Origin: Hygrocybe punicea | Lineage: Eukaryota > Basidiomycota > Agaricomycetes > Agaricales > Hygrophoraceae | Assembly (NCBI GenBank): GCA_963556145.1 | Contig: OY744466.1 | Coordinates: 186,001 to 250,000, forward strand | DNA length: 64,000 nt | Direction: 5' to 3' | Shown: positions 24,418-49,760 of the stretch, in pieces | Layout: each line of letters begins with the position of its first letter | How positions within the stretch are numbered: the stretch's first letter is position 1 | The notes under the pieces: model-generated | Databases searched by the model: none | What the model was told of the DNA's origin: nothing | Seen by the model: only the letters and a program-made list of their open reading frames with translations | Translations under genes and position numbers: made by a program

Positions 24418-26085
24418 TGTTACGTTTCCAACTCCGCTTCCAACCCCGATGCCCATTCCGTTACCCACCATGACGATTCTGCACTGCACACCTTCCTTTT
24501 TCATTTCTTTTTGTCCTTTGTCTTCCTTTCAACGTCATTGTTTCTTCATTTGGACATCCTTGTATTTTCTTATTCTTGTTCTCTTTTTGCCCCTTCTTCT
24601 AGAACAATCCAGACCGACCATGGACATCTCCCACATGACCTTGTTGTACCCGAATAGTCTCCTTGCCGATGGACATCACCGACATTGTCTTTTCCCTTCG
24701 ATATCTTGTTTACGCTATCCCACGACAAACTGATCACAATGGCTGTACTCCCGACACAGCTCATTACCGTAATTGTTATTGGCAGCATTGCCATCACCTT
24801 CCTGATCGGTTTCTACCTTGTTATGATCTATCTTTGGCATCGGCACCGAAACCCTTCCGCCATTGATACTTCTGACTTCCACCTCGACAATATATCGACA
24901 CATAATTGACAATTGCCATTCCCGGATATTTGGTTTCCATATTCGTACCCTGTGCCCACCATTATCCTCCCTGACGATCCGACGACATTCCTCACCTGCA
25001 TGCGAACTCTGAACAATCCCCAATCACAAGACATTTCACTGTTCTCTCTAATCCGACCATCGCCGGAGCATACTCTTTTGGACTTCGACCACAGACCATA
25101 CGACTTCCCAAACAGTGAACCAACCCCTATCGTATATTGTTCGCACGACACCGCTTCAATGCAGTACCCGACGACTTGTTCCCACAGCTTGTCACTCATG
25201 CCATGACTCGAAACCTGGACCCACGTTCATTTATCCTTTTCCATCCATAATCTTGATACCTCCCACACTCGTTTACAATGATACCCTTTCTTGGACGAAT
25301 ACCGACATCAGGTGGACCACATTGTTCCACACACAGGACAAGACACCGCCCCTCGATACGTCATTGACACAGACATCGTCATCCGGTACAGCTTATGCTG
25401 TTCACATGTCTGACCTTGACTAGCCCACTGTCCTAGTTGGTTTTTTCCTCTATACATTCCTTCATTTTCTTTCATACCAACCTTGCCACTATATCCACGC
25501 TACCTCAAGACACTCTCATCACCAACCCCACACTGGACGATACCCATCTTCGACCCGACCGTGCAATGCACTTGCCAAACTGCACACTTGCCCGTTACAG
25601 CAAGTGTAGACCCCGAATTGGCAATTCTGCATGTCACATGATCCGATGACAAATCATCCGAGTCATCCGGACCTCTTCTATCCTCAACGACACCCAGGCC
25701 TCCAGTTGGATCGTGAGAACATCGACATGAGGACGCCTCATGTACGCCTCATGGTGAACACATGGTAGAGTTGGACATGTTGTGGCTTCATGGTTGTATT
25801 TCTATTTACCTCCCCTCAAGACCAGTCATTATATATACTGTTCTTGTTGTTGGTTCGGACTTTTTCTTCTTTTCCTTTCTTTACGTTTAGTCTGGTTCTT
25901 GGGGCAGACTCATCTTGTTTTGGGTAACCCCCACGGCTCGCAATGACACTAGACCTTGACCCCCCCCTGTTAGCAGTGTTGTCTTAGCTGTAAGCAACAA
26001 TGAAAGCTGCTGTTCTCCCCTCTGGAAGCCGATCCCCTGTTAAGTTGATTGTTGCCGGAGCCCGCTGCAGAAGCGATCCGTAACA
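24418..26085 (+). mobile_element. LTR, retrotransposon family A, copy 2
   Basis: A 1668 bp copy with TGTTACG at the start and CGTAACA at the end, closely matching 483-2145 and 34824-36490. Flanks ggtat (left) and catgg (right) do not match, unlike the other two copies. With the purine-rich gggggtat just upstream, this is most simply a 3' LTR of a truncated element rather than a solo LTR. It abuts the end of the KDZ element on the right. Confidence 0.8.
24739..24909 (+). CDS. Small single-pass membrane ORF inside LTR family A (copy 2)
   Basis: Same 56-codon frame as at 800-970, with the start, length, hydrophobic segment and WHRHRNP turn unchanged. Differences from copy 1 are a few substitutions, mostly outside the hydrophobic part (for example PSAIDTSD in place of PPAIDTPD). 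No function is known. Confidence 0.35.
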   Translation: MAVLPTQLITVIVIGSIAITFLIGFYLVMIYLWHRHRNPSAIDTSDFHLDNISTHN

Positions 26086-28736: not shown

Positions 28737-29559
28737 TCTGGAGTCACTTCAGGCTACCCCCAAACCTGAACAACTAGTTACAACTCACCTCTAGTACTGA
28801 ACCATCTACATGTTGGTAAAAGTACTGGGCAGCCCTGGGACGAAACCATTGTCCCTGGGACGATACGTTGGGACGTCCCATTGTCCCTGGTCCGGTGTAT
28901 GGGATGGCCCATGGGACGACATTTGGTGTTGTGGGATGTCCCATGTCCCATGGGACATCCCACACATAAGGGGTGTCTGGGGGCATTTGGGACGTCCCTT
29001 CTGTAGCTATTCAATAGAAATCTCAGAGTGATGACAGCATCTAATTATAAATTTCCAGGCCTTGTCATGGCCACTATGGGTACCATGGGTGCTATGGCAT
29101 AGTATAAGATTGTATATACTTATTCTTTTGAGAGTCACAGAGCTGATTGTCCTTCAAGGTCAGTGGCAGGGTGTGGAGATACAGCAGTTCTTTCCACATA
29201 TAAAGACAGAACGAGTGGGAGAGGAAAAGTGCTGGAGATGTTGGGTATTGAGATGGGATTGAGGGGGAGGATTGAGGGTGTGCTTCTAGTAAACCAATCC
29301 CTTGTGCATGTGGCAAGCTGAAGCTTGTAGGGGAGTAAGTGAGCAGAGCATGCATGATATACAAAGAAAAGTAGGGCTACATATGCAGAGGAGGCTGAGC
29401 TGAAAATTAAACACGTGTATTATGAAGACCTTTTGATCAGGATATCAGTGGTTATTACATTATGGGCTGTGCATACAATGGCTGACTGGGAAGCAGATGC
29501 AGAGGAGAGATCTGAAATTAGAGTGTGTCTTGAGGACAGTGGACTTGGGTAAGGAGACA

Positions 29560-30090
29560 TCTCACAGAGGTTTTATTGGGACATCCCACAGGCTCATCTG
29601 GGATGTCCCTGTCAGCTTGCAGCTGAGGCTTTCAGACATCCCTGTCATCTTGTGTGACATCCCACCAAGGCTTTCGGATGTCCCACAGCCTTGTCTGGGA
29701 CATCCCTGTCAGCTTGTGGGACATCCCACTGAGGCTTTGGGATGTCCCACAGACTTGTCTGGGATGTCCCTGTCAGCTTGTGGGACATCCCTACCAGCTT
29801 GTGGGACATCCCACCGAGGCTTTGGGACATCCCACAGCCTTCTCTGGGACGTCCCTGTCAGCTTGTGGGACGTCCCAGCCAGCTTGTGGGACGTCCCTGC
29901 CAGCTTGTGGGATGTCCCTGTCAGCTTGTGGGACATCCCACCGAGGCTTTGGGATGTCCCACGGCCTTGTCTGGGACATCCCTGTCAGCTTGTGGGACGT
30001 CCCACAGCCTTGTCTGGGACGTCCCTGTTAGCTTTTGGGATGTCCCACAGTCAGTTTGTGGGATGTCCCACAACCTGGTGTGGACATCCC
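29560..30090. repeat. GGGACRTCCC tandem array (left arm)
   Basis: More than fifteen copies of the near-palindromic decamer gggacatccc/gggatgtccc, spaced by short spacers such as tgtcagcttgt and accgaggcttt. The right arm counterpart (about 34020-34170) has only a handful, so the array has expanded or contracted since the arms formed. The peptide ORFs over it are by-products. Confidence 0.8.
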
Positions 30091-30529
30091 AATGTACAGG
30101 CTTGTGGGACTGCCTGCTTGCTCAGCGTCTGCTAAGTCATACAATAATAATCATTCCAATCCACATCTTACATAATTTTAAATAATTTACATTTAGCAAC
30201 TACTTAAAATAGATATAGCAAATCAAATAATTATTTTACCTAAATACATGGTATTCTACTTATCAGGGGAGAGGCAGGGAGGTGGAGGTGGAGGAGAGGA
30301 CAGGAGAGGGGGCAATGGCAGGGGCAATGGCAGGGGGTGGGCAAGGGGAGAAGGACAGGAGGTGGATGGGAGGTGGATGGGAGGTGGGGGTGGCAGGGGG
30401 CAGGAGATAGGCAGGGGAGAAGGGGCAGGTTAGGAAGGGACAGACTAGGAGACAGTCAGGGGGAGAATGGAAAGGAGGAGGGAGGAGGGGGAGGGGAAAG
30501 GAGGGGAAAAACCAACAAAATTACACACC

Positions 30530-30598
30530 GGTGTTCCCTGGTGTCCACACCCCTCCGCGTCCTCGCCCTTGTCCCCCTCCTCGTCCTCGTCCCCGTCC

Positions 30599-30630
<32 letters not shown>

Positions 30631-31430
30631 CCCTTCCCCGTCGTCCTCGTGTTTGTCGATTGCGTCCCTGTCCCCATCCTCGCCATCGTCCCGTACCCGT
30701 TCTCGTCGTCCTCGTCCTCGTCCCCATCCCCGTTGCCCTCGTCCTCGTCGTTTTCGTCCCTGTCCCTGTCCCTGTCCCTGTCCCCGCCGTCCCCGCTGTC
30801 CTCGCTGTCCTCGCTGTCCTCGCTGTCCCCGTCCTCGTCGTTGCCGTTGCCGTTGTCATGGTCCCAGTCCCCGTCGTTGTCGTTGTCGTCCTCGTCATCC
30901 CTGTTGCCGCCATCCTCGTTGTCCCGGTCTCTGTTGTCCTCGTCATCCCGTTCCCTCGTCCCGGTCATCCTCGTTTCCGTCGTCCATCGTCCGTTGCCCC
31001 CGTCCCCATTCCTGTGCTCGCTGCCCCCGTCGCCATCCTCGTCGTCGTCCCCGTCGTCCCCGTTGCAGTTGTCCTTGTTGTCCCCGGCTCCGTGGTCGTC
31101 GTCCCGTTCCCCCGTCCCGGTCGTCTTCGTTTCCGTCATCCGTCGTTCCCGTGCCCGTGCCCACTGTCCTCGTCTTTGTTGCCCCTGCTCGTCGTCGTCT
31201 TCCTGTTGTTGTGGTTCCCGTTCCCATTGCCGTCGTCTTCCCCTTTCACGCCGTCGTCACGTTTGTTCGTTTACCCCGTATTCCTCATTCTCGTCGTCCC
31301 CGTTCTTGCTGTCGTGGTCGGCCTGGGTTGTCCCCGTTCTGGGCTGTGTCCTCCCTCCTTGTCGCCCGCATCCGCGTCCGCTTGTTGGCCTTGTTCGCGT
31401 TCATTTGGCGCGAGGGTGCGGCAAAAAAAC
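30530..31430. repeat. GC-rich low-complexity tract, left arm (cgtcctcgtccccgtc type)
   Basis: A trinucleotide-like array of cgt, cct, ccc and gtc, open in nearly every frame on both strands. The mirror copy is at 32530-33600. On the minus strand it could extend the small ORF that starts at 31617, as an Asp/Glu/Gly/Asn-rich tail, but no single frame is clearly favoured. Confidence 0.7.
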
Positions 31431-32345
31431 CTAAAACTGTTTATTATTAATAATTAGTTAGTAGAATAAATGAAAAAGATAAATGGACGACTTACCTGGG
31501 GTGCTCTGGCATCCGCACCCGTTGTTGCGTCGTTGTTGAAAACGACAAGTCTTGTTGAACTCGTGCACAAGACTTTCAACCGGAATTTGCCGATGTCCCA
31601 AACGGGGTCGAGTTGCCATATAGGGAAGGGTGGCTGGATTTTCTTATTATTATTACATGTACTACAACACCTCAATGGCCAGGGCAAGACCCTGAAGAGA
31701 TGTAGGTATGATACACCTACCCCAAGGGGAGTTTATGCATTTTATTTCATTTTATATGTGGAGATATTCACCATGCATTTTATGCCTCTGCCAAAATTGG
31801 ACCCTTAAACAGCTAACTTTGCGAGTACACGTCTGAAAAATCTCAAATTAATTCTAGGAGTGCTAGGTAAGGTATAAATTGTGTTCCAGACAAGTGCCTG
31901 GTAGTTGGTGGTGCAGGGAATGTGTTGTAGCCAAAATATGATGAACTTGTCCCTCACATTCCATTCATGATTATGTGTGCTTATACGGACTTTTGATTGT
32001 CTAGCCACAATGCAAAGATCCAACTCCATTTTGGCTACAACACATTCCCTGCACCACCAACTACCAGGCACTTGTCTGGAACACAATGTATACCTTACCT
32101 AGCACTCCTAGAATTAATTTTAGATTTTTCAGATGTGTACTCGCAAAGTTAGCTGTTTAAGGGTCCAATTTTGGCAGAGGCATAAAATATATGGTGAATA
32201 TCTCCACATATAAAATGAAATAAAATACATAAACTCCCCTCGGGGTAGGTGCATCATACCTACATCTCTTAAGGGTTTTGCCCTGGCCATTGAGGTGTTG
32301 TAGTACATGTAATAATAATAAGAAAATTCAGCCACCCTTCCCTAT

Positions 32346-32680
32346 ATGGCAACTCGACCCCGTTTGGGACAGCGGCAAATTCCGGTTGAAAGTCTCGTGC
32401 ACGAGTTCAACAAGACTTGTCGCTTTCAACAACGACGCGACAACGGTGTGGATGCCAGAGCACCCCAGGTAAGTCATCCATTTATCTTTTTCATTTATTC
32501 TACTAACTACTTAAATACTTTTAGGTTTTTTTGCCGCACCCTCGTGCCAAACGAACGCGAACAAAACAAGCAGACGCGGATGCGGGCGACAAGGAGGGAG
32601 GTCACAGCCCAGAACGGGGACAACCCAGGCCCACCACGACAACAAGAACGGTGACGACGAGAATGAGGACGACGGGGTAA
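32346..32680 (+). CDS. Candidate intron-containing ORF of the fold-back element (right arm copy)
   Basis: An ATG at 32346 opens MATRPRLGQRQIPVESLVHE and continues to APQ, followed by a canonical intron (gtaagt donor after 32468, tactaac branch site, tttttag-like acceptor near 32523). The next exon is Arg/Lys/Asp-rich and runs into the GAC/GAG tract, where the frame stops within about 130 bp. The left arm carries the same start (31617, minus), intron and branch site, with a one-base difference before the donor. Conservation of all splice signals in both arms is suggestive, but the product resembles nothing known and may be a shared non-coding leader. Confidence 0.35.
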
Positions 32681-33414
32681 ACGAACGAACACGACCACGG
32701 CGCGAAAGGGGAAGACGACAACGGGAACTGGGAACCACGACAACGGGAAGACGACAACGAAGATGAGGATGACGAGTAGGGCAGCGGGCATGGGGACCGG
32801 GACGACGACCGGGAGGGGGAACGGGATGACGAGGACCACGGAGCCCGCGACAACAAGGACGACGGCAACGGGAACGACGAGCACGACGGGGACGACGACC
32901 AGGACGACGACCAGGACAGTGAGCACGGGAACGGGACGGGGACAACGGACGACGGAAATGAGGACGACCGGGACGAGGGAACAGGACAACGAGGACAACG
33001 GACCCAGGACAGCAAGGATGACGCAACGGGGACAACGAGGACAACGGGGGCGACGGGGGCGACGAGGACGATGGGGACGAGGACGACGAGGACGGGGACG
33101 ACATCGAGGACGACAACGAGGACAGCGAGCACGGGAACGGGGACGGGGGCAATGGACGACGGAAACGAGGATGACCGGGACGAGGGAACGGGATGACGAG
33201 GACAACGAGACCGGGACAGTGAGGACGACGGCAACAGGGACGACGAGGACGACAACGACAATGACAACGACGGGGACTGGGACCACAACAACAGCAACGA
33301 CGGCAATGGCAACGACGAGGACGGGGACGGTGAGGACAGCGAGGACGGCAGGGACGGCGGGGACGGGGACGGGGACAGGAACGAAAACGACGAGGACGAG
33401 GGTGACGGGGACGG

Positions 33415-33447
<33 letters not shown>

Positions 33448-33600
33448 GAATGGGGACGGGGACGACGGCGAGGACAGGAACGGGGACGAAAACGACAAAC
33501 ACGAGGACGACGGGGATGGGGACGAGGACGAGGACGACGAGGATGGGGACGGGGACGAGAACTGGGACAAGGCCGAGGGGTGTAGACACCAGGGAACACT
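32530..33600. repeat. GC-rich low-complexity tract, right arm (gacgaggacgacgg type)
   Basis: Inverted counterpart of 30530-31430 and about 170 bp longer. It is dominated by gac, gag, gga and acg triplets. All-frame openness is a composition effect. Confidence 0.7.
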
Positions 33601-34823
33601 GGTATGTAATTTTGTTGGGCCCTCCCTTTCCCTCCTTTCCCCTCCCCCTCCTCCCTCCTCCTTTCCATTCTCCCCCTGACTGTCTCCTAGTCTGTCCCTT
33701 CCTAACCTGCCCCTTCTCCCCTGCCTATCTCCTGTCCCCTGCCACCCCCACCTCCCATCCACCTCCTGTCCTTCTCCCCTTGCCCACCCCCTGCCATTGC
33801 CCCTGCCATTGCCCCCTCTCCTGTCCTCTCCTCCACCTCCACCTCCCTGCCTCTCCCCTGATAAGTAGAATACCATGTATTTAGGTAAAATAATTATTTG
33901 ATTTGCTATATCTATTTTAAGTAGTTGCTAAATGTAAATTATTTAAAATTATGTAAGATGTGGATTGGAATGATTATTATTGTATGACTTAGCAGATGCT
34001 GAGCAAGCAGGCAGTCCCACAAGCCTGACATTGGGATGTCCACACCAGGTTGTGGGACATCCCACAAACTGACTGTGGGACATCCCGAAAGCTAACAGGG
34101 ATGTCCGAAAGCCTCAGCGACAGGGACATCCCAGACGAGCCTGTGGGATGTCCCAATAAAGCCTCTGTGAGATGTCTCCTTCTGTCCTCAAGACACACTC
34201 TAATTTCAGATCTCTCCTCTGCATCTGCTTCCCAGTCAGCCATTGTATGCACAGCCAATAATGTAATAACCACTGATATCCTGATCAAATGCTCTTCATA
34301 ATACACGTGTTTAATTTTCAGCTCAGCCTCCTCTGCATATGTAGCCCTACTTTTCTTTGTATATCATGCATGCTCTGCTCACTTACTCCCCTACAAGCTT
34401 CAGCTTGCCACATGCACAAGGGATTGGTTTACCAGAAGCACACCCTCAATCCTCCCCCTCTTTCCCATCTCATTACCCAACATCTCCCTCTCCCACTCCT
34501 TCTGTCTTTATATGTTGAAACAACTGCTGTATCTCCACACCCTGCCACTGACCTTGAAGGACAATCAGCTCTGTGACTCTCAAAAGAATAAGTATATACA
34601 ATCTTATACTATGCTATAGCACCCATGGTACCCATAGTGGCCATGACAAGGCCTTGAAATTTACAACTAGATGCTATCATCATCCTGAGGTTTCTATTAA
34701 ATATCTAGAGAAGGGATGTCCCAAATGCCCCCAGACACCCCCACAACACCAAATGTTGTCCCATGGGCCATCCCATACACCGGACCAGGGACAATGGGAC
34801 GTCCCAACGTATCGTCCCAGGGC

Positions 34824-36490
34824 TGTTACATTTCCAACTCCGCTTCCGACCCCGATGCCCATTCCGATACCCACCATGACGATTCTACACTGCCACCTTC
34901 CTTTTTTATTTCATTTTGTCCTTTGTCTTTGTTTCGATGTCATTGTTTCTTCATTCGGACATCCTTGTACTTTCTTGTTCTTGTTCTCTTTTTGTCCCAC
35001 CTTCTAGAACAATCCAGACCGACCATGGACATATCCACGTGACCTCGTTGTACCCGAATAGTCTCCTTGCCGACGGACGTCACCGACATTGTCTTTTCCC
35101 TTCGATATCTTGTTTACGCTATCCCACGACAAACCGATCACAATGGCTGTACTCCCGACACAGCTCATTACTGTAATTGTTATTGGCAGCATTGCCATCA
35201 CCTTCCTGATCGGTTTCTACCTTGTTATGATCTATCTTTGGCATCGGCACCGAAACCCTTCCACCATTGATACTTCTGACTTCCACCTCAACAATATATC
35301 GACACGTAATTGACAATTGCCATTCCCGGATATTTGGTTTCCATATTCGTACCCTGTGCCCACCATTATCCTCCCTGACGATCCGACGACATTCCTCACC
35401 TGCATGCGAACTCTGAACAATCCCCGATCACAAGACATTTCACTGTTCTCTCTAATCCGACCATTGCCGAAGCACATTCTTTTGGACTTCGACCACAGAC
35501 CATACGACTTCCCAAACAGTGAACCAACCCCTATCGCATATTGTTCGCACGACACCGCTTCAATGCAGTACCCGACGACTTGTTCCCACAGCTTGTCACC
35601 TGTGCCCATGACTCGAAACCTGGACCCACATTCATTTAACCTTTTCCATCTATAACCTTGATATCTCCCACACTCGTTTACAATGATACCCTTTCTTGGA
35701 CGAATACCGACATCAAGTGGACCTTCTTGTTCCACAAACAGGACAAGACATCGCTCCTCGATATGTCATCAACACAGACATCGTCATCTGGTACAGCTTG
35801 TGCTGTTCACATGTCTGACCTCGACTATCCCACCATCCTAGTTGGTTTTCCCTCCATACATTCCTTTGTTTTCCTTTATATCGACCTTTCGCTATGTCCC
35901 CGCTACCTCAAGACACTCTCATCACCAATCCTACACTGGACGATACCCATCTTCGACCCGACCGTGCAATGCACTTGCCAGACTGCGCACTTGCCTGTTA
36001 CAGCAAGTGTAGACCCCGAATAGGCAATTCTGCACATCACATGATCCGATGACAAATCATCCGAGTCATCCGGACCCCCTCTATTCCTCAATGACACCTG
36101 GGCCTCCAGTTGGATCGCGAGAACATCGACATGAGGACGCCTCATGTCCGCCTCATGGTGAAAACATGGTGTAGTTGGACATGTTGTAGCTTCATGGTTG
36201 GATTCCCATTTACCTCCCCTCAAGTCCATTCACTATATCTACTGTCCTTGTTGTTGGTTCGGACTTTTTCTTCTTTTCCTTTCCTTACGTTTAGTCTGGT
36301 TCTTGGGGCAGACTCATCTTGTTTTGGGTAACCCCCACGGCTCGCAATGACATTAGACCTTGACCCCCCCCTTCTTAGCAGTGTTGTCTTAGCTGTAAGC
36401 AACAATGAAAGCTGCTGTTCTCCCCTCTGGAAGCCGATCCCCTGTTAAGTTGATTGTTGCTGGAGCCCGCTGCAGAAGCGATCCGTAACA
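34824..36490 (+). mobile_element. Solo LTR, retrotransposon family A, copy 3
   Basis: A 1667 bp block with TGTTACA start and CGTAACA end, flanked by agggc on both sides (34819-34823 and 36491-36495). It is inserted in the outer right arm of the fold-back element. Removing it and one agggc restores the match to the left arm. It is therefore younger than the fold-back insertion. Confidence 0.88.
35143..35313 (+). CDS. Small single-pass membrane ORF inside LTR family A (copy 3)
   Basis: The third intact copy of the 56-codon frame. The hydrophobic segment is identical in translation to copy 2. The tail differs by two residues (STIDTSD and HLNN). Same caveats as for the other copies. Confidence 0.35.
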   Translation: MAVLPTQLITVIVIGSIAITFLIGFYLVMIYLWHRHRNPSTIDTSDFHLNNISTRN

Positions 36491-36590
36491 AGGGCTGCCC
36501 AGTACTTTTACCAACATGTAGATGGTTCAGTACTAGAGGTGAGTTGTAACTAGTTGTTCAGGTTTGGGGGTAGCCTGAAGTGTCTGGAGT

Positions 36591-38560
36591 CAGTGTTTGG
36601 ATGACTGACAGTGCTGCATGATAATGATTAAACAGAAAATTCCCTAAGAAGTTGGTCATATTTCAGCTGCATGATTATTGAAGTATGGTACCCACCAAGT
36701 TCAGTGTACTTATCTTCATCCCAAAAGGCAAAGTGTTCCTTGATGGCTTGATGGCGATGAAACTTGCTTGCATGTCGTATGCCATGTGCAACAACATTGG
36801 AAGCCGAAAAGATTCTCTCACATCCTTCACCTTCCGATCGGCCCATACCCTTGATATAAAGAGGATGCCAATTTAATTGACACCCACGGTTATGAGCATG
36901 CCTATGAAAAGCATTAACTGACATGTGAAATTGCAGGCTCCACACAAGTGGACCAAGACTACTATCCTGGAGTGTTTTGTCAAATGCACAGCCAATATCA
37001 TATCGACATCCAATCTTGGGGCCATAAACTGAAAGCAGCTGGTCAACCATGGCAAGTGGATACTTGCGACTGCCACATAACATAACAGTTGAATATTGAA
37101 ACTAATCAGGAAAGGGATCTTACAGTTCCCTGCTTTGAATCATATCACAGATCTGCAGAACAAGGCCATGGCAACAGGCAACAATGAATATACCTGTTTC
37201 GTCAAATATTCCAAACTTCTTTTTCCACTCCTCTGGTCCTGCAACACGCCAACATTTGATGCAGTGTGCAACAGGGTCTGAAGGAGGCAAATCTTCCCAA
37301 TTGTCATTTGAATCTTCAGCTGCCGCTTTCACTTTGCCTGTACCTTGCTGAAAGAGATATCAGGATATATATATATTAGCATGTAAAATATCAAATATTA
37401 CTGATCGGGCCTCATCACGAAACTGGTCAATCTCTTTTGGTCCCATCCAGTAATCCGAGTGAGCTATTCAGCCATCTGGGTGGTCCTCTTGCAGACGAAT
37501 GAAGGCATGTGTTCAACAAAGTGAACTATTTGCATCCATTTTGCACAAGAATGAAAATATGAGCACTGGCTCATCTGCAAGTTGGTAGAAACAGGCTGGA
37601 CAGCACTTTAGCAGACGCCAGTTTGGTGTGTCTCATCCCAGTGCCGATTTGAGCTGCCTTTCAACCATGTAACCAATCTCCAAATATATATCATAAGCGA
37701 TGGAAATTTGATCACTCAGGTACCTGCGGTACAGCACCTGCAGTTACTGTCCCATCAATTAATATATACATTGGACTGAAAGAACAACATACATTATGTA
37801 AATGACATAATGCTCAAGCCTGACCCTGGATACTGAGGTGAGGGCTGACATGGTGAGTTTGACAGAATGCTGTCAGTGTCTGCAGTGATATAGCAACAGT
37901 CGGAAGAAGTGGGGAACAGCCAATATAGCCATGGCAAACTAATACTGTATTGAGGTGCAGGTCCATTGACAGGATAGGGAAGTGATGGTGGCCACAAGCT
38001 ACAAATTAAGTCAGAGGATAGCTGTTGTCAATTGGCTTGACATACAGAATGTATCAACGACCATGACATCAAGCAATTGAATGTTGTCATGTTCAACATG
38101 AATAGGGAGGATAGGAAGTTGTTCACCATTGTCGTGTAGCTGATGTCAACCAAGAATTTGAGCTGTGGAATCCAGTTAGCGGTTGTAATGTTTATGCGAT
38201 TGCTCCAGTCTCGATCATTGACACAACGGCTAGAATGCATTTTTAGTAGGTGCCTGAATAGTCAGACAGATATGCGTACATTCCTGCAAGATCCAACAAG
38301 CCTTCTACAAGTTCTTCATACAGATATTTGCCACTGACATGGCTCATATCAAGATCTTCATCTCCAGGTGGTGGTTGGCTGCAAATATCTGCAGCCCAGT
38401 CATCAGTTGCTGTTCCAGCATCCATATCCATGTGATAAATGGCCTCTCGGTCTTCATAGGACATCCCTTGGTCAAAACAGTGAGCTGTATCAAATTGCTT
38501 GAAGTATTGCTGTATACAGTCATTCATGGCTCCTTGAGACAGCATGGGTCCTTGAGACAA
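36591..38560 (-). pseudogene. KDZ transposase gene, N-terminal and catalytic part
   Basis: Minus strand. Block 37700-37440 reads EIGYMVERQLKSALG, DTPNWRLLKCCPACFYQL and HSDYWMGPKEIDQFRDEA, with stops. After an intron-like gap, 37332-37120 reads CIKCWRVAGPEEWKKKFGIF and DETGIFIVACCHG. Block 37083-36628 holds the KDZ core: KYPLAMVDQLL, GPKIGCRYDIGCAF, FHRHAHNRGCQLNWHP, GEGCERIFSASN and RHASKFHRHQAI. A one-base shift near 36640 leads to GNFLFNHYHAALSVIQTLTP, which runs into the fold-back insertion point and continues at 28736. The Asp- and Gln-rich segment 38560-38243 may be the N-terminal part. The gene belongs to the Kyakuja-Dileera-Zisupton superfamily and is inactivated by stops, frameshifts and insertions. 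Confidence 0.82.
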
Positions 38561-39687: not shown

Positions 39688-40389
39688 TGTTACGGATCGC
39701 TTCTGCAGCGGGCTCCGGCAACAATCAACTTAACAGGGGATCGGTTTCCAGAGGAGAGAAGAGCAGCTTTCATTGTTGCTTACTACTAAGACAACACTGC
39801 TAAGAGGGGGGATTCATGGTACAATGTCATTGCGAACCGTGGGGGTTACCCAAGATAAGGGGGTCTGCCCCAAGAACCAGACTAAATGTAAAGAAAGGAA
39901 AAGAAGAAAAAGTCCGAACCAACAACAAGAACAGTATATATAATGACTGGTCTTGAGGGGAGGTAAATAGAAACGCAACCATGAAGCCACAACATGTCCA
40001 ACTACACCATGTGTTCACCATGAGGCGCACATGAGGCGTCCTCATGTACGCCTCATGGTGAACACATGGTAGAGTTGGACATGTTGTGGCTTCATGGTTG
40101 TATTTCTATTTACCTCCCCTCAAGTCCATTCACTATATCTACTGTCCTTGTTGTTGGTTCGGACTTTTTCTTCTTTTCCTTTCTTTACGTTTAGTCTGGT
40201 TCTTGGGGCAGACTCATCTTGTTTTGGGTAACCCCCACGGCTCGCAATGACACTAGACCTTGACCCCCCCCTGTTAGCAGTGTTGTCTTAGCTGTAAGCA
40301 ACAATGAAAGCTGCTGTTCTCCCCTCTGGAAGCCGATCCCCTGTTAAGTTGATTGTTGCCAGAGCCCACTGCAGAAGCGATCCATAACA
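39688..40389. repeat. Palindrome of two family A LTR 3' ends
   Basis: The left arm (39688-40027) is the reverse complement of the last 340 bp of LTR family A. The right arm (40049-40389) is the same end in forward orientation. A short spacer of about 21 bp joins them. Outer tips are TGTTACGG and CATAACA. No target duplication is visible around it, and it replaces part of the gypsy element, so a rearrangement or double LTR event is likelier than a simple insertion. Confidence 0.82.
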
Positions 40390-48307: not shown

Positions 48308-49760
48308 TGAGGCAATGTTCTTGTCCAACAGTTTGATGAGTATTGGACACCTGAATCACTTCCAGCACACATGATCAAGATAGGTGTGGCATGCACACAT
48401 GGAATTTATGGAACGGACAGTGTCTGTTGCACTGCAATGCTGCATACTGTGCCTGAGTCACTGGCCCAATGATTTGGTGAAAACCATTCAGCCTATTGTA
48501 CCAGTAATGATAATGTATTAAGTATGATGTGCATTGCAAGGTTATATAGCAATAGTACAGACCCACAGGTCATACTACTGTTTGTACAATGGCATTGCCC
48601 AGCACTGAATGCTTTGTGATACATTGTTCTACCTGTTAAATGAGTAAGCACTGCTTGCATTGTTAATGATTTCAAAGTGCATATTAAATATTGCTACATC
48701 ACAGACACATCCAATATGCTGTTACAGTGGTTTGTGCATTGGGAATGTCTCAGATAAAAACTGGAACACCTACCGAACACATACTGAACACATTTGGACC
48801 TGTGTGACAAATAGTCACTGCTTGCCTTGTCAGTAATTCTAATGCACATTGTACATGCATCTACATTACAGATGCATCCAATACATTGTTCGTACAGATG
48901 TTTGTGCAAGGGGAATGCCCAAGATTAAGGCTGGGACCACTACCGAACACTTTACCGAACACATCGAACACCTTTGGACCTGTGTGACAAATAGTCACTG
49001 CTTGCATTGTCAATAATCCTAATACACATTGTACATGCATCTACATTACAGATACATCCAATGCGTTGTTCATACAGATGTTTGTGCAAGGGGAATGCCC
49101 AAGATTAAGGCTTGGACACCTACCAAACACTTACCAAACACTTACCAAACATGTTCAATGTGTTCGGTGCAGTATATCTAGTCACACTGGTTTACTGAGA
49201 TGCACCAAACATGTCCACCGAATACACCGAACATGTTCGATGTTTTCGGTGTAGTATATCTGGTCATACCAGTTTACTGACATGCACCAAACATGTCTAC
49301 CAAACACACCGAACATGTCTACCGAACACACCAAACATGTCCACCGAACACACCGAACATGTTCGATGTATTTGGTGTAGTATATCTGGTCCTACCGGTT
49401 TACTGACATTCAACATGTCCACCGAACACAGCAAACATGTTCGATGTGTTCAGTGCAGTATATCTAGTCACACTGGTTTACTGATATGCACCAAACATGT
49501 CCACCGAAAACACTGTACAGATGTTTGTGCATGGGAATGCCCAGCTTAAGGCTGGGACACCTACCAAACACTCACCGAACACCTCTGGACCTGTGTGACA
49601 GGTATACAATGAACACTGTTCAACCTCTTTTCATTATCAACAATTCTAATACACACAGTAGATATAGCTACATGACAGATACCACTGACATATTGTTCAT
49701 TCATACATGGTGCATTGCATTACCGGTGCATGTGATTATTAGAAGAAAGTGATTGCAATT
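48308..49760. repeat. Two-level tandem repeat region
   Basis: A long unit of about 180 bp (tacagatgtttgtgcaagg and its neighbours) recurs at about 48700, 48880, 49065 and 49510. Between the last two, a shorter unit of about 80-110 bp built from accgaacatgttcgatgtgt and agtatatctggtcatacc occurs about four times (49130-49505). GAACATGTTC inside the unit is a palindrome. The ORFs over it simply translate the repeat. Confidence 0.75.

Follow-up and report, generated by a model that had tools for sequence, protein, structure and literature searches.

A palindromic fold-back element of Hygrocybe punicea and its probable place in a KDZ family of cut-and-paste transposons

We analysed a 64,000-nucleotide stretch of the genome of Hygrocybe punicea (assembly GCA_963556145.1, contig OY744466.1, positions 186,001 to 250,000 of the forward strand; hereafter the window), in which a fold-back element spans positions 28745-36582, directly bounded by exact 8-bp copies of TCTGGAGT. 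The element is a mobile unit that was inserted whole, and the fold-back family to which it belongs is real and looks recently mobile. We put at about 85% the probability that it is a non-autonomous member of a cut-and-paste family of the Kyakuja-Dileera-Zisupton (KDZ) superfamily; it cannot move on its own and probably relies on the transposase of an uncommon relative whose ends match. Loci elsewhere in the assembly are given below as a sequence label (C1, C34 and so on) and a position.

The element has inverted repeats over most of its length, a small loop, conserved tips and internal repeats, and is built as follows.

28737..28744, no strand: left target duplication TCTGGAGT, perfect over 8 bp
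28745..28836, plus strand: left terminal inverted repeat, starting CACTTCAGGCTACC, the same as the right tip over 92 bp
28745..31937, plus strand: left arm of the fold-back, from the inverted-match comparison
31938..32027, no strand: loop of 90 bp between the arms
32028..34823, minus strand: right arm of the fold-back, inner part, up to a solo long terminal repeat (LTR)
36491..36582, minus strand: right terminal inverted repeat
36583..36590, no strand: right target duplication TCTGGAGT, perfect over 8 bp

An earlier note on this DNA, made from the letters alone, had placed the tips at 28745 and 36582 within a perfect 8-bp duplication around a 90-bp loop, all of which proved exact. It had also given the identical tips as 17 bp, and they do match, but the terminal identity actually runs to 92 bp; its arms of about 3 kb hold good once the 1,667-bp solo LTR is discounted, although the right arm is interrupted and the arms are unequal. 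Aligned arm blocks are 83-100% identical, with gaps, the chained arm matches average 86.4%, and the innermost 419 bp of the arms are 96% complementary; together the arms make up 58% of the element, solo LTR included. The central 928 nt form a near-perfect hairpin with a folding energy of -774.9 kcal/mol, against -242.3 +/- 9.2 for 20 shuffled sequences, which excludes chance as the source of the fold-back structure. No match to Rfam was found in the window at the gathering threshold.

The claim that the element moved as one unit was borne out by the direct 8-bp duplication and by an empty site elsewhere in the genome. A 600-nt query, consisting of 300 nt of each flank joined by a single TCTGGAGT, is found unbroken at C41:1203909-1204507 (96% identity) and again at C6:1627728-1628326 (93%), with three further nearly full-length matches at 78-79%. 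The uninterrupted target is thus present elsewhere, and the element came in as one unit. What it entered is part of an older KDZ transposase gene that lies outside the tip family.

36628..37101, minus strand: part of the older KDZ transposase gene, the insertion target (PF18758, E 1.4e-45), with the empty-site match as further evidence

A single genomic copy had been named in the earlier note as the sign of a purely local duplication. The 14-bp tip instead has 133 exact copies in the genome (68 forward, 65 reverse; none for the reversed control), many of which face each other in pairs flanked by 7-8-bp duplications; for a 37-bp tip the count is 71. We compared 35 stretches, namely the window copy and 34 others picked by tips or arm matches, among which 30 elements have two tips, including the KDZ-coding element described below. 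Exact duplications of 8 bp flank 12 of these 30 and exact duplications of 7 bp another 13, so that a single tip type pairs near equally with both, as a mixed stagger. In 26 of the 30 the chained inverted arms reach 1 kb or more, and in 21 they amount to at least half of the element; the length of the window element is ordinary for its family, many copies measuring 4-8 kb. The first 96 bp of the window tip are exact in 40 of 65 ends, and identity to the majority, 99% in the outermost 100 bp, has dropped to 86-92% by 850-1000 bp; these ends were selected by the exact 14-mer, and their outermost bases are hence biased. The loop sequence (at least 60 bp of it) recurs in 23 of the 35 stretches, which argues for a single founding inverted duplication.

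The link to an enzyme comes from a two-tipped element of 12,271 bp at C34:778003-790273, whose terminal inverted repeats (TIRs) of 2,334 bp differ at 3 positions (99.87% identity) and which is flanked by the duplication AGAGAGAA. Over 96 bp its left tip is the same as that of the window element, and its right tip has 1 mismatch. Between these tips lies an exon with a KDZ transposase domain (PF18758, E 6.1e-58) and, in an exon-like stretch upstream, a CxC1 cysteine cluster (E 6.3e-7, 29.9 bits against a cut-off of 26.9). A Pfam scan of its ten open reading frames (ORFs) found no transposase domain besides KDZ, and specifically no hAT and no P/THAP domain. The exon has 827 relatives at E <=0.001 in the protein collection; all of the 120 listed show the KDZ domain, and among these best 120 those with a named organism are agaricomycetes.

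Diverged relatives extend the association. A second KDZ element at C34:1.726-1.737 Mb, 65% identical in nucleotides to the coding stretch of the first, has the tips CACTTCAGGCCACCC and CAATTCAGGCCCCCC (starts given as CACTTCAGGCC... and CAATTCAGGCC...), TIRs about 1.37 kb long and 95.8% identical, and a duplication, ACATATT, read by eye. Besides this locus on C34, six diverged KDZ loci on C1, C2 and C7 bear the tip core CACTTCAGGC on one side or on both. The pattern CACTTCAGGCNNCC occurs at 222 places genome-wide, against 4 for the reversed pattern; four of the six loci lie between convergent CACTTCAGGCNNCC tips 10,070-11,329 bp apart, and the other two have one such tip within 15 kb. This tip test covered the first 100 of the 222 places (to C7:4.3 Mb) and loci known from matches to the coding stretch, with the loci on C8, C40 and C41 lying outside it and the short KDZ fragment C1:5971729-5972011 set aside.

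A further shared character is a palindromic decamer, GGGAYRTCCC, whose arrays in the element had already been reported in the earlier note.

28870-28998: additional decamers of the left arm
29578..30069, plus strand: main decamer array, mostly one every 21-22 bp, candidate transposase-binding sites
34054..34154, minus strand: smaller array in the right arm, with 4 decamers and 2 more at 34713 and 34796

The pattern GGGA[CT][AG]TCCC occurs 30 times in the window element (24 in the left arm, 6 in the right) and is absent from the remaining 56 kb of the window. There are 22 occurrences in C34:778003-790273 and 25 in the relative at C34:1.726-1.737 Mb, always within the TIRs, while the tandem units around the decamers differ between these two elements. 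The whole genome has 3,150 such sites, compared with 138 for the reversed pattern, a 23-fold excess. Among the first 100 sites listed, 98 are no more than 3 kb away from a tip, ground that amounts to 1.6% of the stretch concerned. A decamer kept across otherwise diverged TIRs is the pattern expected of transposase-binding sites. We therefore regard the array as a candidate transposase-binding array, by analogy with Galileo of Drosophila, in which the tandem repeats of the TIRs hold multiple binding sites for the transposase (PMC3688188).

Several observations weigh against the KDZ assignment. The window copy itself carries no known transposase, as the earlier note had stated: none of the PF18758 matches listed falls inside it, no ORF-by-ORF scan having been made. 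The close KDZ-coding copy is single in the assembly (one match at 100%, the other 22 at 63-78%), and its TIRs match the fold-back arm only in the outer ~0.86 kb (90%) and over 165 bp (78%), differing deeper. Five of the 30 two-tipped elements show no exact duplication of 7 or 8 bp; in one of these 6 bp match, inside flanks that mirror each other, and the other four have none exact. The inheritance of arm sides, described below, is partial only. Finally, the genome has 186 KDZ matches in the PF18758 search, most of them outside the tip test, and KDZ lineages with other ends may well be present here. The limited match of the TIRs, with inner arm parts that differ, also gives no support to a derivation of the fold-backs from C34:778003-790273 by simple deletion.

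Duplications of 7-8 bp, as reported for KDZ elements, flank 25 of the 30 elements, and the CxC1/CxC2 cysteine cluster known from the superfamily is represented by the CxC1 of the coding element. The nearest described architecture that we found is KDZ1 of Cryptococcus, an element of ~11 kb with 241-bp TIRs, 8-bp duplications and the KDZ and CxC1 domains, as given in the sections consulted of PMC12810828. The same sections describe KDZ1-KDZ3 of Cryptococcus neoformans as coding elements of 9-11 kb with KDZ and CxC1, TIRs and duplications of 8 bp (4-8 bp in KDZ2 and KDZ3), and make no mention there of fold-back derivatives or decamer arrays. Their TIRs are 139-241 bp long, whereas here those of the coding element reach 2,334 bp and the arms of the non-coding ones up to about 3 kb. 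Kyakuja (TET+) elements of Laccaria and other Agaricomycotina likewise belong to the KDZ superfamily and have CA..TG termini and 7-bp duplications, but in the sections consulted of PMC12730594 they are described without TIRs and with TET/JBP. None of the Tet_JBP places listed falls within C34:778003-790273 or within any of the four KDZ elements between tips on C1, C2 and C7; this and the very long TIRs rule out an identity with TET+ Kyakuja.

Outside the superfamily, the strongest resemblance is to Galileo (P superfamily), which according to the parts consulted of PMC3688188 and PMC3573991 has a fold-back-like coding element, long and internally repetitive TIRs, many two-TIR copies without a coding region, and exchange between copies. 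Its transposase is of a different superfamily, and binding by the KDZ enzyme is here only presumed; membership in the P superfamily was rejected, as the coding relative has KDZ and no THAP or P domain in its ten ORFs. FoldBack (FB4) of Drosophila and Mutator-type fold-backs, with long inverted repeats, a variable loop and conserved complex termini (PMC4022104, in part), are alike in shape only. A mushroom element with TIRs of 93-96 bp, a loop and no intact transposase gene differs in its 9-bp duplications and its size of about 1-1.4 kb, and the parts consulted of PMC10051438 report no KDZ link. The shape and the superfamily are both known, and their pairing, with a shared decamer array, was not met in the literature searched: we found no report of fold-back or long-TIR KDZ elements in the open-licence full texts that were listed or consulted in part, which does not show that none exists.

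As a mechanism, the KDZ transposase of C34:778003-790273 or of a close relation would recognise the CACTTCAGGC tip and the GGGAYRTCCC arrays, pair both ends, excise the palindrome of 6-8 kb and insert it through a 7- or 8-bp staggered cut. The arms would have been born from one inverted duplication around a common loop and then have spread as a unit, and in some copies one arm would later have been copied onto the other, making the arms identical again.

With arms oriented by the loop, the nearest neighbour in another element is a same-side arm for 26 of 42 arms and an opposite-side arm for 10 (6 tied), and the median identities are almost equal (AA 0.939, BB 0.937, AB 0.936), so that strict inheritance of two arm lineages, left and right, is only partly supported. 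Subterminal left/right pairs (26 true pairs; L047, with two left ends, excluded) are at least 99.7% identical in 12 elements, 99.0-99.5% in 3 and at most 97.6% in 11, and the members of these last 11 are closer to another element than to their own partner. Some elements thus carry two diverged arms, the window copy among them, and others are symmetrical; arm-to-arm copying would be the simplest cause of the symmetry. A second trend concerns CpG: polymorphism affects 88-94% of CpG columns, compared with 17-21% of the others, a contrast that the definition of CpG columns favours. With the fairer control of majority dinucleotides only, CG is polymorphic in 38/38, 2/2 and 16/16 cases, against 17-70% for other dinucleotides. 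This CpG hypermutability is best taken as a trace of cytosine methylation, and methylation at CpG would also account for the CG, CA and TG versions of the decamer.

Some members of the tip family depart from the common form. Two elements with the same tips are tiny, namely C7:1196818-1196947 (L016) of 130 bp and C7:2971589-2971988 (L017) of 400 bp, with exact 8- and 7-bp duplications respectively, and are derivatives of the tip family resembling miniature inverted-repeat transposable elements. At C1:1622008-1628728 there are two nested CACTTCAGGC tip pairs (CCACC outer, TGCC inner), with 395 bp between outer and inner tip at either end and decamer arrays left and right, making a doubly tipped, fold-back-like copy. 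The 13.7-kb copy at C33:3389122-3402866 (L028, L032, L051, L052) has flanks that are mirror images for ~0.6 kb past both tips (89%), and an apparent repeat with a 45-bp period; it is perhaps an inverted duplication larger than the element. A fold-back copy at C8:3667803-3695605 (L035-L037), enlarged to 27.8 kb, contains a KDZ match (3689322) and, 2.8 kb away, a Tet_JBP match (3686563), and apparently holds a nested TET-carrying KDZ element.

Mobilisation by another transposase, such as hAT, with the KDZ gene of the C34 element as a mere passenger between the tips, is quite unlikely in our view. The exact tip is found in just one close KDZ-coding element, and 8-bp duplications are usual for hAT (Kojima 2025, PMC12730594, in part). 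Yet the six further KDZ loci share the tip core, the 65%-identical relative combines like tips, decamer-bearing TIRs and a 7-bp duplication, and Cryptococcus KDZ1 unites the same domains with TIRs and 8-bp duplications; the ten ORFs of the C34 element gave no hAT domain and no other transposase, hAT genes elsewhere in the genome not having been searched. That the structure is a local inverted duplication or an assembly artefact, without any mobile element, is extremely improbable: the mirror-image flanks on C33 suggest that inverted duplication of a wider region occurs in this genome, but the window copy has a direct 8-bp duplication, its empty site is found at least twice elsewhere, and its tips are common to many unlinked elements. 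Empty sites and copy number together rule out both an artefact and a single local inversion.

A different kind of explanation concerns the persistence of the fold-backs rather than their movement. They might be sources of hairpin RNA that silence the KDZ family, in the manner of Mu killer of maize (PMC3440606, in part), which would account for both their retention and the CpG decay. The arms and the TIRs of the coding C34 copy have ~0.9 kb in common, and the family includes long hairpins, some nearly perfect over 1-2.5 kb. However, no match was seen between the arms and the transposase coding region, CpG decay hints at past cytosine methylation and not at its cause, and copy number is already explained by simple transposition, so that we hold this role to be doubtful. 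With as little confidence, one might speculate that these elements form a distinct KDZ fold-back lineage, in which kilobase TIRs with tens of palindromic decamers serve as a multi-site transposase platform, Galileo-like and independently evolved, and that its palindromic derivatives, with TIR sequence in common with the one close coding copy, feed hairpin RNA into a family-wide cytosine methylation, a Mu killer-like brake that leaves CpG decay behind.

Two other features lie within the element.

32346..32680, plus strand: spliced-ORF-like piece, frame not conserved (exon 32346-32468, intron 32469-32524, stop by 32680)
34824..36490, no strand: solo LTR of 1,667 bp, TGTTAC...GTAACA, flanked by a 5-bp duplication AGGGC, not part of the fold-back

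The intron-containing ORF that the earlier note had seen in each arm exists as letters (ATG at 32346, 91 codons once spliced, with an inverted counterpart in the left arm), and not as a conserved reading frame. In 12 of 48 arm copies the start or the splice donor is not recognisable, 23 of the 36 others have the piece in another frame, and 3 copies have an exonic stop, which rules out a captured functional gene. The Asp/Gly/Arg-rich part that follows has several open frames on either strand, an openness that is uninformative, as it comes from GAC/GAG/GGG repeats.

The extra sequence in the right arm was likewise rejected as a component of the fold-back, being a solo LTR with relatives elsewhere; its insertion, near the arm tip, postdates the fold-back. 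A genome search gave at least 45 matches, at least 36 of them near-full (itself counted), these being lower bounds as 40 of 1,233 candidates were scored, and some relatives are paired about 4.5-4.7 kb apart, near-full pairs at about 4.6-4.7 kb among them, as the LTRs of retrotransposons would be. The copy at C8:458825-460492 is 100% identical (rounded), and the same LTR family has near-full copies in the window at 24418-26085 (94%) and 483-2145 (91%) and a partial one at 40029-40389. Elsewhere in the window, tandem arrays of 180-, 82- and 78-bp units with ACCAAACATGTCC-like words occupy 48694-49513. The solo LTR, the tip-matching KDZ-coding sister, the KDZ target gene and the CpG decay are all additions to what the earlier note contained.

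Fold-back elements have long been known and, to our knowledge, have seldom been tied to an enzyme. Here one genome links a tip, a decamer array, a KDZ/CxC1 transposase and a 7/8-bp duplication, and offers side by side a coding copy with near-identical TIRs, coding relatives that have diverged but share the motif, and palindromic derivatives by the dozen. This yields concrete predicted binding sites for a KDZ transposase, GGGAYRTCCC together with CACTTCAGGC at the ends, and would extend the multi-site, long-TIR design of Galileo to another superfamily. The family also supplies naturally occurring palindromes of kilobase length for tests of arm conversion, hairpin RNA and CpG methylation.

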